The position numbers were made by a program, and so were the translations under genes. 64,000 bases of DNA, from positions 124,001-188,000 of the forward strand of contig NZ_JAAAGB010000009.1 in assembly GCF_010586825.1 (NCBI RefSeq), in the 5' to 3' direction. Of this stretch, positions 43,660-50,545 are shown piece by piece. This DNA comes from Draconibacterium mangrovi (GTDB lineage: Bacteria; Bacteroidota; Bacteroidia; Bacteroidales; Prolixibacteraceae). Under the pieces are notes generated by a model, which had not been told where the DNA came from, did not search any database, and saw nothing but the letters and a program-made list of their open reading frames with translations. Numbering within the stretch: the first letter of the stretch is position 1; each line of letters opens with the position of its first letter.

Positions 43660-43770
43660 TTGCTTATACAGAAGAGTGGAGAGATCGGGCTCTGTGAAAC
43701 TCTGGCAACCTTGTTCGGCAACCGGCGGACAAAAAGGTGCCAATACCCGGCCGGAAACGGAATTATAATT
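43660..43770 (+). ncRNA. SAM-I (S-box) riboswitch
   Basis: The conserved S-box core is present: CTTATAC at 43663, AGAGTGGAGAG, TGTGAAACTCTGGCAACC (43693-43710) and AAAAAGGTGCCAATACC (43731-43747). These form P2 to P4 around the SAM pocket. P1 is weak (TTATA/TATAA) but possible. It lies downstream of a good promoter and upstream of the homocysteine genes, so high SAM should shut the operon off. No clear terminator follows, so control could also be by translation of the micro-ORF. Confidence 0.85.
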
Positions 43771-43782
43771 AAAACACAATCG

Positions 43783-43860
43783 ATGAAGAAACTGCACTAC
43801 AAATTATTTTTTACAAGCTATCTGCACGGGGCAAATATGTGTATGCGTCAGCGGTTTTAA
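43783..43860 (+). CDS. 25-residue micro-ORF, candidate leader peptide
   Basis: Just after the riboswitch an ATG opens a 25-codon frame that starts MKKLHYKLFFTSYL and ends GANMCMRQRF. The end is unusual in having Met-Cys-Met in a row, which fits a peptide whose translation could report methionine or cysteine supply. The stop codon overlaps a small hairpin (GCGGT/ACCGC, 43851-43864). The gene that uses the leader, the DUF39 protein, starts 116 bases further on. I do not recognise the peptide as a described family. Without a homology search, coding status is inferred from the position, the clean ATG and the odd motif. Confidence 0.45.
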   Translation: MKKLHYKLFFTSYLHGANMCMRQRF

Positions 43861-43976
43861 CCGCATAAAATTAGCTGAGTAAAGAATATCAATACAAACT
43901 TTTAAATGAAGACAGTTGCCGGTTTCGAAGATTCATGCTTCGGTATCCTGGCTTCCAACTTCCGACTTTTTAAAAT

Positions 43977-45140
43977 ATGTCGACAACAAAAACTTACGAA
44001 GAGATTAACCAAAAACTGAAGGCCGGAAAAGCAGTTGTTTTAACCGCCGAAGAAGTTGCACAAATGGCGAAAGAGTTAACGCCGGAGGAAATAGTTGAGA
44101 AAGTTGATGTAGTAACCACTGCAACCTTTGGCGCTATGTGCTCATCGGGGGCGATTATAAATTTCGGTCACGCGAATCCGCCAATCCGGATGGAAAAAAT
44201 ACGGCTGAACGGCGTTCCATGCTACGAAGGTCTGGCTGCGGTTGATTCATACATTGGCGCCACTGCCTGTAACCCTGACAATCCGGAGTACGGGGGTGCA
44301 CACGTTATTCAGGATCTGCTGGAAGGAAAAGATGTGGTTTTGGAGGCCTGGGCAAAAGGCACCGATTGTTATCCGCGGAAACATATAAAAACCAAAATCA
44401 ACATTAACACGATTAATGAGTTTACCTTGTTCAACCCGCGGAATGCTTATCAGAACTACAATGTGGCGGTAAATACCACTTCCACCATAAAATATACCTA
44501 CATGGGCAGTTTGCTTCCGAATTTGCGCAATGCCACCTACTCTACTTCAGGCGAATTAAGTCCACTTCTGAACGATCCGGAGTTTAAAACCATCGGGCTG
44601 GGAACACGCATATTTTTAGGAGGAACACAGGGTTTTGTGGTTTGGCCGGGAACACAGTTTCATACCACGAAACCAAAAAACGAGCTGGGAGTTCCGGTTA
44701 CCAATGGCGCTACCATTGCGGTAATGGGCAATCTGAAAGAAATGTCGGCCGAATACATTCAGGCTGCATCATACGAGAAATACGGGGTGAGCATGTTTGT
44801 GGGAATTGGTATTCCGATACCGGTTTTAAACACAGACATTGCCAAACGCGTATCGATTAACAACAGCCAGATTGAAACTTCGGTTCTTGATTACGGGACG
44901 GTTGGAACGCCCAAACTCGGGCAGGTTACCTACGAGGAATTGCAGTCGGGAACCATAAAAGTGAAAGGTAAAAAGATAAGAACCGCGCCGGTTGCCAGCT
45001 TAAAAAAAGCACGCAAAATTGCTGATGAACTGAAGAAATGGTTGCAAAACGGAGAGTTCGAAGTAACCAAACCCGTACACATGTTCCCGTCAAATACATC
45101 GCTAAACGGACTAAAAGAAATGGAGGTTGACAATGATTAA
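43977..45140 (+). CDS. Homocysteine biosynthesis protein (DUF39/COG1900)
   Basis: 387 residues. DUF39 marks include TFGAMCSSGAIINFGHANPP (about 44-63) with a central Cys, and CNPDNPEYGGAHVIQDLLEG (about 90-110). Proteins of this group, together with the NIL/ferredoxin encoded next, are needed in Methanosarcina and sulfate reducers for making homocysteine straight from sulfide and an aspartate-semialdehyde-derived intermediate. This avoids cystathionine and O-acylhomoserine. No signal peptide; cytoplasmic. The last 8 bases overlap the ferredoxin gene, so the two are translated together. It lies under the SAM riboswitch, which fits the pathway. Confidence 0.9.
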   Translation: MSTTKTYEEINQKLKAGKAVVLTAEEVAQMAKELTPEEIVEKVDVVTTATFGAMCSSGAIINFGHANPPIRMEKIRLNGVPCYEGLAAVDSYIGATACNPDNPEYGGAHVIQDLLEGKDVVLEAWAKGTDCYPRKHIKTKININTINEFTLFNPRNAYQNYNVAVNTTSTIKYTYMGSLLPNLRNATYSTSGELSPLLNDPEFKTIGLGTRIFLGGTQGFVVWPGTQFHTTKPKNELGVPVTNGATIAVMGNLKEMSAEYIQAASYEKYGVSMFVGIGIPIPVLNTDIAKRVSINNSQIETSVLDYGTVGTPKLGQVTYEELQSGTIKVKGKKIRTAPVASLKKARKIADELKKWLQNGEFEVTKPVHMFPSNTSLNGLKEMEVDND

Positions 45141-45543
45141 AAAAAGATACATACTGAATTTCCCTCCGCAAAGCGGCGACAAAGCGTTTACTTACCACTT
45201 GGTGAAGGAATACGATATCCGGATAAATATTCTGAAAGCAGAGGTATACCCCGGGAAACGCGGCAGTCTTTTACTTGAGCTGCAAGGCAAAAAAGAAAAC
45301 ATTGAAAAAGGCGTTGAGTACATTAAAAGCCACAAAATCACCTGCGAATCGCTCGACAAACGTATTCGCTGGAAAGAAGAAAAATGTATCGACTGCGGAA
45401 ACTGTACCGCCGTATGTTTTGCCGGTGCATTAAACATGGACAAGCAGTCGTGGAAACTGGAATTCGACAAAAGCAAATGTGTAGTTTGCGAACTTTGTAT
45501 TCCGGCTTGCCCGCTAAACCTGTTCGAAATTGATTTTAGATAG
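45133..45543 (+). CDS. NIL-domain ferredoxin of homocysteine synthesis
   Basis: 136 residues from the ATG at 45133, which overlaps the DUF39 stop. An N-terminal NIL domain (about 1-75) is a small ACT-like regulatory or binding fold. It is followed by two 4Fe-4S motifs: CIDCGNCTAVC (Cys85, 88, 91, 95) and CVVCELCIPAC (Cys116, 119, 122, 126). Each has four cysteines, with the usual proline-type ends. It is the redox partner of the DUF39 protein in sulfide incorporation; the electron donor is unknown. Confidence 0.92.
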   Translation: MIKKRYILNFPPQSGDKAFTYHLVKEYDIRINILKAEVYPGKRGSLLLELQGKKENIEKGVEYIKSHKITCESLDKRIRWKEEKCIDCGNCTAVCFAGALNMDKQSWKLEFDKSKCVVCELCIPACPLNLFEIDFR

Positions 45544-45579: not shown

Positions 45580-46332
45580 ATGAATATTTTTGAAGAACGT
45601 ACATACCGCAGCCAGTTTAACACCGACCGTTTTACAGGTTTTGAAGTAAAATACCTTGAAACTGATCTTTGGATCGGTGTCGATCCGGCCTCTTACAAAG
45701 AAGAGATGCAGGAAGTGGCTTTGGCAAAAGCGAAATCGTTGCGTCAAACTTTCGATGATTATATCGAAAAGGAACCGTTTTTCAGGAAAAGCCTGAAACC
45801 TTTTCAGCCGTCAGACTTTGCTCCTGAAGAAGCAAAAGAAATGGCGCTGGCTGCCGAAAAAGCGGGAATTGGTCCGATGTCGGCAGTGGCAGGTTTGTTT
45901 GCCCGCGAAGTTGGAGATGAAATTTGTAAAAACTTTTCGGTGAAGGAGCTGTTAGTTGAAAACGGTGGCGACATTTATTTGCTTTTACAGGAAGAATTGA
46001 TTTTATCTGTTTTTGCAGGCGAATCCATTCTATCCGAGCGTATCGGGCTGGTAATTCCAGCAGGGAGTAGTACCTTTGGTATTTGTACTTCGGCCGGAAC
46101 AGTTGGTCCCTCGTTAAGTTATGGAAAAGCGGATGCCGTTGTGGTGGTTTGTGAAGATATTCTTATGGCAGATGCGCTGGCAACGGCCCTGGGAAATAAG
46201 GTTAAAACACCTGACCACGTTGAGAAAGTGATTAAACAGGCAGAAAATTATAAAGAAATACAATCGTTGCTCATTATTTGCGAAGATAAAATCGGGATCA
46301 AAGGAGACAACGAAATTCGAATATTGAAGTAG
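45580..46332 (+). CDS. UPF0280/COG2122 ApbE-like protein
   Basis: 250 residues. GPMSAVAGLFAREVGDEI and VENGGDIYLLLQEE mark the UPF0280 family, which shares the ApbE fold. IPAGSSTFGICTSAGTVGPS is the conserved stretch near the middle. Members of this family have been linked genetically to the same homocysteine route as the DUF39 and NIL/ferredoxin proteins, although their chemistry is not settled. It lies 36 bases after the ferredoxin gene. The set of three is thus complete in one operon. Confidence 0.88.
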   Translation: MNIFEERTYRSQFNTDRFTGFEVKYLETDLWIGVDPASYKEEMQEVALAKAKSLRQTFDDYIEKEPFFRKSLKPFQPSDFAPEEAKEMALAAEKAGIGPMSAVAGLFAREVGDEICKNFSVKELLVENGGDIYLLLQEELILSVFAGESILSERIGLVIPAGSSTFGICTSAGTVGPSLSYGKADAVVVVCEDILMADALATALGNKVKTPDHVEKVIKQAENYKEIQSLLIICEDKIGIKGDNEIRILK

Positions 46333-46375
46333 ATGAAACAAACGATAAATTAAATAAGATGCTTGACCTACTTAT

Positions 46376-46410
46376 TCAATTCCCCCTTTGAAGGGGGCCA
46401 GGGGGATGAA
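46376..46410 (+). repeat. C/G-rich palindromic repeat, left border of DUF559 unit
   Basis: The sequence CCCCCTTTGAAGGGGG followed by CCAGGGGGATGA is a palindrome of a type seen often between Bacteroidota genes. It recurs in variant form at 46809-46834 and in 51711-51820. Confidence 0.7.
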
Positions 46411-46428
46411 CATATTAATTTTAAAACC

Positions 46429-46806
46429 ATGTCCGAAGATTTTTCAAATAATAATTACAATAAAAATCTAAAAGAACATGCCAGAAAACTTAGAAGTAAT
46501 TCAACACTGGCAGAAGTCATTTTATGGGACGAAGTTTTAAAACAAAAACAACTAAAAGGATATGCGTTTTTAAGGCAAAGACCAATAGGAAATTATATTG
46601 TAGATTTTTTCTGTAAAGAGTTGAAAATGATTATAGAACTGGACGGAACAATTCATCGGTTTCAGAAAAGTAAGGATAAAAAGAGAGAAGAGGATTTACA
46701 AGCAATGGGATATAATATTATACGGTTTCATAATGAGGAAATTCTAAAAAATATTCATAATGTGAAGATATCTTTGGAACTTTACATTGAGGACATAAAA
46801 GTGTAA
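46429..46806 (+). CDS. DUF559 (VSR-like endonuclease fold) protein
   Basis: 125 residues from the ATG at 46429; an upstream ATG at 46363 would translate the palindromic repeat and is rejected. Motifs [38 protein letters not shown] and [11 protein letters not shown] match the DUF559 family, which has the restriction-endonuclease-like fold of Vsr. It is cytoplasmic and a lone gene. It is framed by C/G-rich repeats and splits the homocysteine genes from metH, so it looks like a mobile or inserted unit. The function is unknown; a nuclease role is only inferred from the fold. Confidence 0.85.
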
Positions 46807-46834: not shown

Positions 46835-46876
46835 TCAGACAAAACAACGGCTACAAAGAAATTGAAAGAGAGAAAA

Positions 46877-49800
46877 ATGAAGATAAAAAGAGACATACGG
46901 GAAGAACTCAAAAAGAGAGTATTGGTATTGGATGGAGCAATGGGATCTCTGATTCAGGAATATAAATTGGAAGAGGCCGATTACAGGGGCGAATTGTTGA
47001 AAGATCACCCCAGTGATATGAAAGGGAACAACGACATGCTGTCGCTGACTCGCCCTGATGTTATTTCGGAAATCCATGAGGCTTATCTGGAAGCCGGTGC
47101 CGATATAATCTGCACCAACACATTTAATGCAACCAGCATTTCGCAGGCCGATTACTATACTGAAGAGTATGTCTATAAAATGAATAAGGCTTCGGCTGAG
47201 ATTGCCAAAGAACTGACCGATAAATTCACCTTGGCCAATCCGGATAAACCACGTTACGTTGCCGGATCAGTTGGTCCTACAAACAAAACATTATCACTTT
47301 CGCCTGATGTAAATGATCCCGGTTATCGCGCCATCTCATTCGACGAGTTGAAACAAGCGTATCGCGAACAGGTGGAAGCATTACTTGATGGCGGCGTTGA
47401 TCTGTTACTGATCGAAACAATTTTTGATACGCTAAACAGCAAAGCAGCCATTTTTGCCATTGAAGAAGTTCTTGACGAAAGAGGTATAAATATTCCTCTA
47501 ATGGTTTCTGGAACCATTACCGATGCCAGTGGCCGTACACTTTCCGGTCAAACGCTGGAAGCTTTCCTGAACTCGGTTTCGCACGTTGATTTGTTAAGTA
47601 TAGGACTAAACTGCTCGTTGGGAGCTACCGATCTTCAGCCGTACATTAAAGAACTGGCCGGGAAAGCACCATTTCATATTAGTGCACACCCAAACGCAGG
47701 ATTACCAAACCAGTTTGGCGAGTACGACGAAACACCGGAAATTATGGCCGGCCACATCAAACAGTATCTCGATAATAACTATGTAAATATTATTGGTGGT
47801 TGCTGTGGTACAACACCTGCTCACATTAAGGCATTTGCCGATATGGCTGCCAAAGCAAATCCGCACCATCGGGCCGAAGCGACCACTTATACAAAGCTGA
47901 GTGGACTGGAGCCGGTTACCATCACCGAAAACACCAACTTCCTGAATATTGGAGAACGTTGTAACGTTGCCGGATCGCGTAAATTTGCACGACTGATCAG
48001 TGAAGAAAAATATGAGGAAGCGCTTACAATCGCACGTCACCAGGTAGAAAATGGGGCACAGGTGATCGACGTAAACATGGACGATGCCATGTTGGACGCC
48101 GAAAAAGAAATGGTGACTTTCCTGAACCTGATTATGGCAGAACCCGACATTGCCAGGCTTCCGATTATGATCGACTCGTCGAAGTGGCATGTGATTGAAG
48201 CAGGGTTAAAATGTTTGCAAGGAAAAGCTATTGTAAACTCCATCAGTTTAAAGGAAGGCGATGAAGTTTTTATCGAGCAGGCAAAAAAAATTAAACGCTA
48301 CGGTGCAGCAGTTATCGTTATGGCATTTGATGAAAAAGGCCAGGCCGACAACACCGAACGCCGCAAAGAAATTTGCAGCCGTGCTTATAAAATTCTTACC
48401 GAAAAAGTTGGACTGCCTGCCCAGGATATAATTTTCGATCCGAACGTGCTGACGATCGGTACCGGAATTGAAGAGCATAATAATTATGCCGTATCGTTCA
48501 TCGAATCGGTGAAATGGATAAAAGAGAATCTGCCGCTGGCAAAAGTTAGTGCCGGTGTAAGTAATGTTTCGTTTGCTTTCCGCGGAAACAATGTGGTACG
48601 CGAAGCGATGCACTCTGTGTTCCTGTTTCACGCGATAAAAGCCGGTCTCGACATGGGAATTGTAAACCCGGGAATGTTGCAGATTTACGATGAAATCCCA
48701 AAAGACTTCCTTGAAAGAATTGAAGACCTTGTATTAAATCGTAGGCCGGATGCAACGGAAAGATTGCTTGAATTTGCCGAAAGCCTGAAGTCGACTTCGA
48801 AAAAAGAAGAAAGAAAAGACGAATGGCGCGAACTGCCGCTTGAGAAACGGATTGCTCACTCGCTGGTAAAAGGATTGCCCGAATTTGTTGACGAAGATAT
48901 GGCCGAAGCCGTTCAGAAATACTCGCCTGCATTGGATATTATCGAAGGTCCGTTAATGGACGGTATGAACATCGTTGGTGAGTTATTTGGCTCAGGAAAA
49001 ATGTTCCTGCCTCAGGTGATAAAATCGGCAAGGGTAATGAAAAAAGCTGTAGCTTATTTGCTGCCGTTTATTGAAGCCGATAAAGCAAAATTCAAAAACA
49101 GCACGTCGCAGAAAAAGGTGCTGATGGCCACCGTTAAAGGCGATGTTCACGACATTGGTAAAAATATAGTTGGTGTGGTACTGGCCTGTAATAACTACGA
49201 AATCATAGATTTGGGCGTTATGGTTCCAACCGAGAAAATCCTTGAGGAAGCCATTAAAAACGAAGTTGATGTAATCGGGCTGAGCGGATTAATCACTCCG
49301 TCGCTGGAAATAATGGTGGAGATTGCCAAAGAAATGGAACGCCGCAAGATGAATATCCCGGTGATGATCGGCGGTGCAACCACGTCAAAAATACACACTG
49401 CCGTTAAAATTGCTCCTGAATATTCGGCACCGGTTGTTCACGTAAAAGATGCATCACTGGCCGTTAATGTGGTTTCCCACCTGATTTCCGGAAACGAAAA
49501 ATTCCTTCAGAATCTGGATGCTGAGTACGCTCAGATTCGCGAATTCCAGGGAAAACGAAAAACAAAAGAATACTTAAGCCTTGAAAAAGCACGCGAGAAT
49601 AAATTCCCGATCGATTGGAACAATACTCCAATTTATAAACCGAATTTTACCGGGGTAAAACACTTGATCGACTTCCCGCTGGAAGAACTGCGGAATTACA
49701 TCGACTGGACATTCTTTTTTATCACCTGGGGATTAAAAGGACATTACCCGCAAATTCTGGCCGATGAAAAACAGGGCGAAGAGGCTAAAAAGCTTTTCAA

Positions 49801-50545
49801 AGAAGGAAATGAATTCCTGGATGAAATTATAGAGAAAAAGATGCTGCAGGCCAATGCTGCTTTTGGAATCTGGCCGGCACAATCGGATGGCGACGACGTT
49901 GTTCTATACGAAGATGAATCGTGCGAGAAAGAGATCGGACGTTTCTATCATCTTCGCCAGCAGGAAAAGAAAAAAGAGGGTGTGGCTAATTTCTGTTTGT
50001 CAGACTTTGTCGCTCCAAAAGAGTTGGGGAAAGTGGATTATTGCGGAGGTTTTGCCACTACTGCCGGAATTGGAATCGAAAAATGGACGAAACAATTCCG
50101 CGAAGAGCACAACGATTATAAAGCCATCATGGTAGAAGCTCTGGCCGACCGTTTAAGTGAAGCTTTTGCAGAACTGCTTCACCTCGAAATTCGTAAAAAT
50201 TACTGGGGTTATGCACCCGACGAAAAACTGTCGCTCGACGAAATCCTGAAAATAAAATACCAGGGAATTCGTCCGGCTTTGGGTTACCCGGCTTGTCCGG
50301 AACACGCTGAAAAAGAGAATCTGTTTCAACTGTTAGATGCTGAGGAGATTGGCATTTCGCTTACCGAGCATTTTGCAATGTATCCGAATGCATCGGTTTC
50401 TGGACAGTACTTCGTGCATCCTGAATCGCGCTATTTCAGTCTCGAAAAAGTGGGGAAAGACCAGGTTGAGGATTATGCGAAACGTAAAAATGTATCGGTA
50501 GAATTTGTTGAGAAGTTTTTGCCAACAAACCTGAATTATAAATAA
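46877..50545 (+). CDS. metH: Cobalamin-dependent methionine synthase
   Basis: 1222 residues from the ATG at 46877; an in-frame TTG at 46862 is less likely. It has all four modules. The homocysteine/zinc domain lies at about 10-320, with zinc Cys residues in LNCSLG and [10 protein letters not shown]. The methyl-folate (pterin) domain lies at about 350-620 ([18 protein letters not shown]). The B12 part lies at about 645-890, with the cobalt-binding His in [13 protein letters not shown]. The C-terminal activation domain lies at about 900-1220. It methylates homocysteine from the homocysteine genes upstream with methyl-tetrahydrofolate made by MetF. The length is normal for a full-size MetH. Confidence 0.97.

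Follow-up and report, generated by a model that had tools for sequence, protein, structure and literature searches.

A Met/Cys-ended leader peptide behind SAM-I riboswitches of Bacteroidales as a candidate second sensor of sulfur amino-acid supply

The leader of the hcyA-metH gene group of Draconibacterium mangrovi carries, directly behind a predicted SAM-I riboswitch, a short open reading frame (ORF) whose peptide is conserved in related leaders, and upstream ORFs (uORFs) with Met/Cys-rich tails stand in the same place in many lineages, with no conserved terminator behind them. On balance we favour a reading in which SAM would decide whether the leader peptide is started and the supply of methionine and cysteine would decide how fast its end is read. 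The parts of this reading differ in firmness. From comparative sequence evidence, we hold it very probable that the ORF is translated and selected, and likely that the aptamer gates its start, while sensing through the Met and Cys codons is a somewhat better than even prospect. Throughout, the window means the whole stretch of 64,000 nucleotides that was analysed; its relevant features are collected in Table 1.

Table 1. Features of the leader and the genes behind it, in window coordinates
Feature	Position	Strand	Evidence or remark
SAM-I riboswitch aptamer (RF00162), type B	43661..43771	+	cmscan 63.8 bits, E 1.6e-12
Gap from aptamer to leader ATG, 11 nt, A-rich start context as in other such uORFs	43772..43782	+	
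Leader peptide ORF, 25 codons, MKKLHYKLFFTSYLHGANMCMRQRF-stop	43783..43860	+	conceptual translation, conservation, selection
Met19-Cys20-Met21 codons (ATG TGT ATG), proposed regulatory codons	43837..43845	+	
Stop-codon hairpin GCGGT-TTTA-ACCGC, GCGGTTTTAACCGC	43851..43864	+	stop codon 43858-43860 inside
Spacer from leader stop to hcyA, sequence not conserved, intrinsic terminator not found	43861..43976	+	21-leader alignment; terminator scan
hcyA-like gene, homocysteine biosynthesis enzyme, HcyBio PF01837	43977..45140	+	E 3.4e-148
NIL + 4Fe-4S ferredoxin gene, listed start TTG	45127..45543	+	PF09383, PF00037
UPF0280/PRK04334-like gene	45580..46332	+	NCBIfam NF003323 244 bits, under cut-off 271
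metH, B12-dependent methionine synthase	46862..50545	+	PF02965, PF02574, PF00809, PF02607, PF02310

The window aptamer scores well above the RF00162 gathering score of 44.4 bits, which places it among the SAM-I (S-box) elements as a predicted riboswitch; it reaches 77.3 bits with R1, a model built in this analysis, and is the only SAM-I match in the whole genome. The leader stop and the hcyA start are 116 nt apart. The NIL/4Fe-4S gene is presumably HcyB-like, to judge from its context, and UPF0280 is our presumed name for the gene that follows it, whose profile matches are PRK04334 models below their cut-offs. A DUF559 (endonuclease-like) gene occupies 46363-46806, between the UPF0280-like gene and metH.

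The sequence-only reading had proposed a leader peptide here, and this proposal has held up well: related leaders have kept the peptide, its ATG and its position behind the aptamer. In a family set made up of 80 hcyA relatives and the window, with aptamers called by a model built here, 37 loci have a SAM-I aptamer, and in 26 of these 37 the peptide follows with its ATG at +7 to +13, so that the loss of peptide or ATG from related leaders, named beforehand as the outcome that would speak against the idea, is not what the family displays. The other aptamer-bearing loci are varied. Four have the ATG of hcyA itself at +7 to +12 instead of the peptide (L045, L046, L063, L099), and in L041, L042 and L044 the gene itself starts at +29 to +31. 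Nothing follows the aptamer in L056, the tail is present in L067 with no ATG in the usual place, L092 has a 16-residue ORF ending RMR, and L106 has an unrelated 45-codon ORF. Among the 44 hcyA loci without a detected aptamer, two carry the peptide motif. In one of them, L047, the contig begins too close upstream for an aptamer to be visible; the other, L052, has 3 kb of upstream sequence without a detected aptamer, yet a Met-Cys-Met peptide and a stop hairpin precede hcyA.

The suggested search for ORFs with an ANMCMR-like end behind SAM-I aptamers gave a similar picture. A 27-base peptide pattern matched once each in 34 of 140 family genomes, the reversed pattern found no match in the same 140 genomes, and 29 of the 30 matches that were fetched stand behind a SAM-I aptamer. 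The sole fetched match without one, L317, has the same peptide and the same place on its contig as L052, and there too the stop hairpin is retained before hcyA. Across 34 distinct cores the peptide reads S-[YF]-[ML]-[HY]-[GF]-[SA]-N-M-C-M, a pattern that the search itself partly demanded for loci from the 140-genome search. The Cys and the second Met never vary, having both been part of the search patterns, and the first Met is Met in 28 of 34 cores, Gly in four, Val in one and Ser in one. The earlier reading could not match the peptide to a named family, and neither the window peptide nor six related leader peptides match Pfam or NCBIfam.

Selection on the reading frame was assessed by pN/pS, which follows the earlier suggestion of a synonymous-site check. 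In frame the ratio is 0.26 over 23 uORFs and 0.21 over the 12 close ones; without the four codons by which the family was found it is 0.34 (bootstrap 0.21-0.50, 10 codons) and, for the close set, 0.28. Frames +1 and +2 give 0.89-1.25, against 0.21-0.34 in frame. Start signals agree with this. In the 12 nt before the start, A makes up 51% for 73 uORFs, compared with 46% for gene starts and 27% for 325 other leader ATGs, and Lys is the second residue in 38 of the 73 uORFs, so that with this A-rich context and second residue the uORF starts look real. Selection and start signals together indicate a short ORF, in all likelihood translated, upstream of a biosynthetic operon.

These results bear directly on the idea that the ORF arose by chance in an RNA element and owes its conservation to RNA structure. 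Some of the tails (ATGCGCATGCGC) are self-complementary, the stop-codon hairpin is conserved, and stop windows fold slightly more strongly than ORF bodies (mean z -1.15 against -0.43, 46 each), all of which would suit such an element. Nevertheless, synonymous change outpaces amino-acid change by a factor of 3 to 5, and does so in frame only, which largely refutes a purely structural origin; the start signals and the Cys-rich tails of different base sequence in the same place add to this. Given the frame-specific pN/pS, the start signals and the control leaders described below, we rule this explanation out for practical purposes and give it almost no credence.

To place the family in a wider setting, SAM-I aptamers were compared in three samples: an order sample of 295 genomes with 101 SAM-I matches, of which two below the cut-off were dropped and 99 were used; a class sample of 90 loci drawn from a longer list, best scores first with some rows skipped, and mostly of type A; and a phylum sample of 29 further loci. 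The aptamers of Bacteroidia (L001-L031, L112-L179, L180-L269) split into two kinds, type A (..TTAT..GAAAGG) and type B (..TTAT..GAAGAG and similar). We assigned an aptamer start of the form xxxTTAT..GAAA to type A and all others to type B, which includes the window with its start TTATACAGAAGAG; type B comprises 85 loci with 64 uORFs under a narrower pattern and otherwise 86 loci with 65 uORFs. The distance between aptamer and ATG is fixed in type B. Of 85 type-B leaders from the order, 73 have an ATG at +7..+16, whereas 200 dinucleotide shuffles give a mean of 16.4 and a maximum of 27; among the 92 type-A aptamers of order and class there are 10, against 15.4 in shuffles. Terminator-like hairpins are distributed the other way round, with 52 in the 92 type-A leaders (shuffles 4.7) and 17 in 48 type-B leaders (shuffles 6.0), the latter mostly with poor U tails.

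What begins at the positioned ATG varies. A short ORF with at least two Met/Cys among its last eight residues is found at 44 of 86 type-B loci, and an early short ORF with fewer than two at 27 of 86, about one third; at 7 of 86 the positioned ATG is the start of metH itself, and 8 of 86 have no ATG at +3..+21. The poor tails and the missing ATGs speak against the reading favoured here. Because the ATG of an enzyme can occupy the same slot (seven metH and four hcyA loci), the aptamer probably gates whichever start lies there, and a start fixed at +7..+16 behind P1, be it of enzyme or peptide, points to riboswitch-controlled initiation at that place. Barrick and Breaker describe SAM-I elements with a ribosome-binding site in the 3' side of P1, for which a start at most 15 nt away is taken as direct translation control (PMC2258182). 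The leader ATG of the window lies within this distance, with the difference that the start in this place belongs to a leader peptide and not to the enzyme.

The ends of these uORFs are the second shared property. In 61 uORFs of at least 18 residues, Met accounts for 100 of 488 residues in the last eight positions and 29 of 1448 in the body, and Cys for 48 of 488 and 41 of 1448; the tail total of 148 Met and Cys compares with 54.9 (sd 5.9, maximum 78) in 2000 within-uORF shuffles. At least three Met/Cys occur in 25 of 64 uORFs, against 0.77% in shuffled leaders. With each family-level group counted as one, a uORF with at least two Met/Cys in its last eight residues occurs in 27 of 32, and one with at least three in 16 of 32. 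At least three Met/Cys in the last eight residues are seen in 28 of 86 type-B loci and in no control leader, the controls being 30 TPP-riboswitch leaders from the same order, 3 of which have an ATG at +7..+16; for type A the count is 0 of 13 in the order and 2 of 79 in the class sample, where type B reaches 6 of 11. Tail enrichment, and Met-Cys-Met in the window, thus place codons cognate to the end product of the pathway near the stop. One frame comparison is left aside: the tails give a mean of 2.33 in frame 0 but still 1.64 in frame +1, since ATGC reads TGC in that frame, and this confounded test is not used as evidence.

The tails take several forms. In the order they include NFTMPLLPMCMR (L139), SSMDMRCMR (L146) and IFSMRMR (L156) as well as poly-Cys ends such as CCCFCCC (L135, L137), with L113 also of this kind; outside the order there are SSYCCCC (L207), NMCMCCCC (L261) and CCHCMCC (L249, from a second ATG), and in the phylum loci YMCCCCR (L343) and CCMCICCPCC (L346). 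Such poly-Cys leader ORFs, directly behind SAM-I aptamers, were thus seen in L113, L135, L137, L207, L249, L261, L343 and L346. The presence of poly-Cys variants in the same place excludes one fixed RNA motif. A second kind of peptide, F[TI]MPxxPM[CS]M, has 8 matches in the 295 genomes, all 8 behind SAM-I; its members differ synonymously among the order loci, and in L176 and L179 the tail-bearing ORF starts beyond +16. As both peptide patterns were drawn from known members, the news lies in the fact that nothing else in those genomes matched them. Riboswitch and peptide in one leader had been called unusual for Bacteroidota, an estimate that has to be reversed: the arrangement is common in Bacteroidales and is also present outside the order.

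The make-up of the peptides raises the question of how their ends would be read. In the 73 uORFs, Met residues are spaced by two in 42 cases and by one in a single case, so that Met forms M-x-M and not the tandem codons of classical attenuators; the poly-Cys variants do have runs. Arg is enriched along with Met, to the same extent as Cys (72 of 488 tail residues and 64 of 1448 body residues in the 61 uORFs). Neither the Arg enrichment nor the M-x-M spacing is explained by codon counting. The residues without sulfur that precede the Met/Cys codons are conserved too, which counts against codon reading, as simple codon counting does not need them. One could therefore suppose that the nascent peptide itself arrests the ribosome, perhaps aided by free methionine, cysteine or SAM; TnaC arrests the ribosome with tryptophan in a comparable way. 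The M-x-M spacing, the purifying selection on the residues before the Met/Cys codons (the value of 0.34 given above) and the second peptide kind, kept as F[TI]MPLMPMCMR with synonymous changes in the order, would all suit an arrest peptide. On the other hand, the tails are not bound to one sequence from family to family (CCCFCCC, SMDMRCMR, NMCMRQRF), a variation more easily reconciled with codons than with a single peptide fold, and conservation within a family may reflect ancestry and coding constraint. We regard arrest by the peptide as unlikely. Sensing through codons is the reading that we keep: the Met/Cys end is retained as an amino-acid property while the bases shift from ATGTGTATG to TGTTGTTGC, which suggests that elongation is the second input.

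In near relatives (21 leaders aligned) conservation covers the uORF and the stop hairpin but not the spacer to hcyA. Pairing is kept in 99.1% of the hairpin cells over 23 distinct rows, with slid versions reaching at most 54.8%, and one pair is changed on both sides in two rows; this count left out L036 and L040, whose stops are shifted, and the short-tail lineage (the L055-L064 kind), none of which has this hairpin. The hairpin over the stop codon, part of the original case for a leader peptide, therefore stands for near relatives, but its absence from some peptide-bearing lineages means that it is not the central element.

A terminator scan of the window leader found no site on the + strand and a single one on the - strand (shuffles 0.6). 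Two candidates were discarded: as a general feature, a hairpin with T5 at about 43906-43970, absent from the + strand scan and in a stretch that is not conserved; and a classical antiterminator in which the 3' arm ACCGC would pair with a downstream CGGT, a match that exists in the window only and is lost in near relatives. Neither an intrinsic terminator of the trp type nor a competing antiterminator is conserved among the leaders compared. CTTC-type repeat runs (CTTCCGACTTC) lie just before hcyA, at 43945-43970 in the window and in L032, L035, L048 and L309; they occur in Draconibacterium-like leaders and are not conserved in all, and an origin as a dispersed repeat was set aside; the window has three matches with one mismatch allowed, two of which are the run itself. 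Elsewhere, a leader ORF ending ATGCGCTGCATGCGC-stop is followed by a T-rich stretch (L073, L083, L089, L094, L103, L146, L159, L165), possibly a weak terminator that overlaps the last codons. A short GCGC hairpin is built from the last codons in Butyricimonas-like and three other hcyA leaders, and a T-rich stretch comes just behind the stop, so lineages may differ in output.

These features leave room for a simpler function, in which a riboswitch-gated uORF aids the downstream gene merely by being translated, which would ward off Rho or RNases or unfold structure, and its tail senses nothing. With no conserved terminator and no conserved spacer this is a natural thought, and the stop-to-gene spacers have a mild excess of C over G in type B relative to type A (p 0.0014; 46 and 83 leaders) that could favour Rho. 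It leaves unexplained, however, a tenfold enrichment of Met and a threefold enrichment of Cys that are confined to the last eight residues, and we consider it improbable. Wherever the downstream gene could be named, type-B leader ORFs precede a gene of homocysteine or methionine synthesis; from sequence motifs we take these genes to be O-acetylhomoserine sulfhydrylase-like metY, aspartokinase-like genes, hcyA, metH and metX. This constant neighbourhood is one argument against a small functional protein that acts in trans under riboswitch control, as the conserved peptide behind an aptamer might otherwise suggest by analogy with the cyanobacterial Downstream-peptide motif. Beyond a single family, moreover, the peptides share the Met/Cys tail but not the body, and the seven peptides compared with Pfam and NCBIfam had no match; a role in trans is very improbable.

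We therefore return to a leader that would combine SAM with amino-acid supply in tuning hcyA-metH, and outline how it may work. (i) Gated initiation. The leader ATG would be the place where the SAM-I riboswitch exerts its output. With little SAM, the P1 helix would open and ribosomes could begin the peptide; with ample SAM, P1 would close beside the start and initiation would fall. The aptamer would thus act on the enzyme only through the peptide. (ii) Reading of the end. Ribosomes that have started on the ORF would reach the Met/Cys codons at its end and, if charged Met-tRNA or Cys-tRNA is short, might slow or stop over the 5' arm of the stop-codon hairpin. With the geometry of Escherichia coli, a ribosome waiting at Met21 would cover this arm. 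(iii) Output. Slowed ribosomes may raise the amount of transcription or translation that reaches hcyA and the genes that follow. The idea of a second sensor, added to SAM control by the sequence-only reading, is in this sense plausible and fits the tails of unrelated uORFs, while the leader peptide is the part of that interpretation that is better supported. A bolder version can be stated for Bacteroidia as a whole: a two-input gate in which the aptamer licenses the start of the peptide and never the enzyme directly, and in which the Met-x-Met/Cys end of an arrest peptide reads the sulfur amino-acid state (tRNA charging or free amino acid), with no terminator-antiterminator pair. We offer it tentatively, as a possibility that we doubt.

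Poly-Cys leader peptides and riboswitch-uORF pairs are known separately; for leader peptides of the Met or Met/Cys kind that follow a SAM-I riboswitch, no report was found in the open-access full-text literature of PMC, a scope that excludes subscription papers and preprints. Cysteine-responsive attenuation in mycobacteria is reportedly the subject of a 2020 study by Canestrari, to judge from its title. In Actinobacteria, Cys leader ORFs (cys operons of Mycobacterium, cbs of Bifidobacterium) are described in which several Cys codons in a row directly precede the stop, and the polycysteine ORFs lie upstream of sulfur amino-acid genes with no conserved terminator, for which Rho was proposed (PMC1262725). 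The leaders studied here resemble them in the short ORF, the Cys near the stop in poly-Cys variants (Cys runs near the stop in L113, L135, L137, L207 and L261; the window peptide has one Cys) and the lack of a conserved terminator. They differ in phylum and in their Met-Cys-Met or M-x-M, whereas the actinobacterial leaders, as outlined there, use Cys only and have no riboswitch in front.

Other systems share one or another element. M. tuberculosis metE and ppe2 pair a B12 riboswitch with a uORF in one leader, and ppe2 is preceded by a translated leader under riboswitch control (PMC11260477); the ligand is another, the abstract names no amino-acid codons, and the termination-reinitiation proposed there for ppe2 is unlikely here given a median stop-to-gene spacer of 127.5 nt (46 loci). 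In the mgtCBR leader of Salmonella, tandem attenuators with two ORFs sense ATP and, by Pro codons, Pro-tRNA (PMC3641672), which likewise brings two signals into one leader, although the model in that abstract has no metabolite aptamer. The metA SAM-II leader of Sinorhizobium meliloti also has a SAM riboswitch, with two in-frame AUGs, the second far downstream, and an intrinsic terminator between them (PMC9373788); its aptamer class is different and no Met/Cys peptide figures in the account consulted. The cyanobacterial Downstream-peptide motif has a structured RNA and, behind it, a short conserved coding sequence that shows synonymous changes (PMC2864571), but there the peptide is the gene, and here it precedes an enzyme operon. 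A Bacteroides thetaiotaomicron map notes unvalidated sORFs in long 5' UTRs (PMC7366714).

If the proposal is true, Bacteroidota would possess a widespread leader peptide for methionine supply, and a riboswitch and a peptide sensor would stand in series, with the riboswitch deciding whether the second sensor is read at all. For annotation it predicts that the positions from +7 to +16 behind type-B SAM-I aptamers deserve inspection. The natural series of Met, Met-Cys and poly-Cys tails, together with enzyme ATGs in the same place, would also offer material for following the evolution of such gates.
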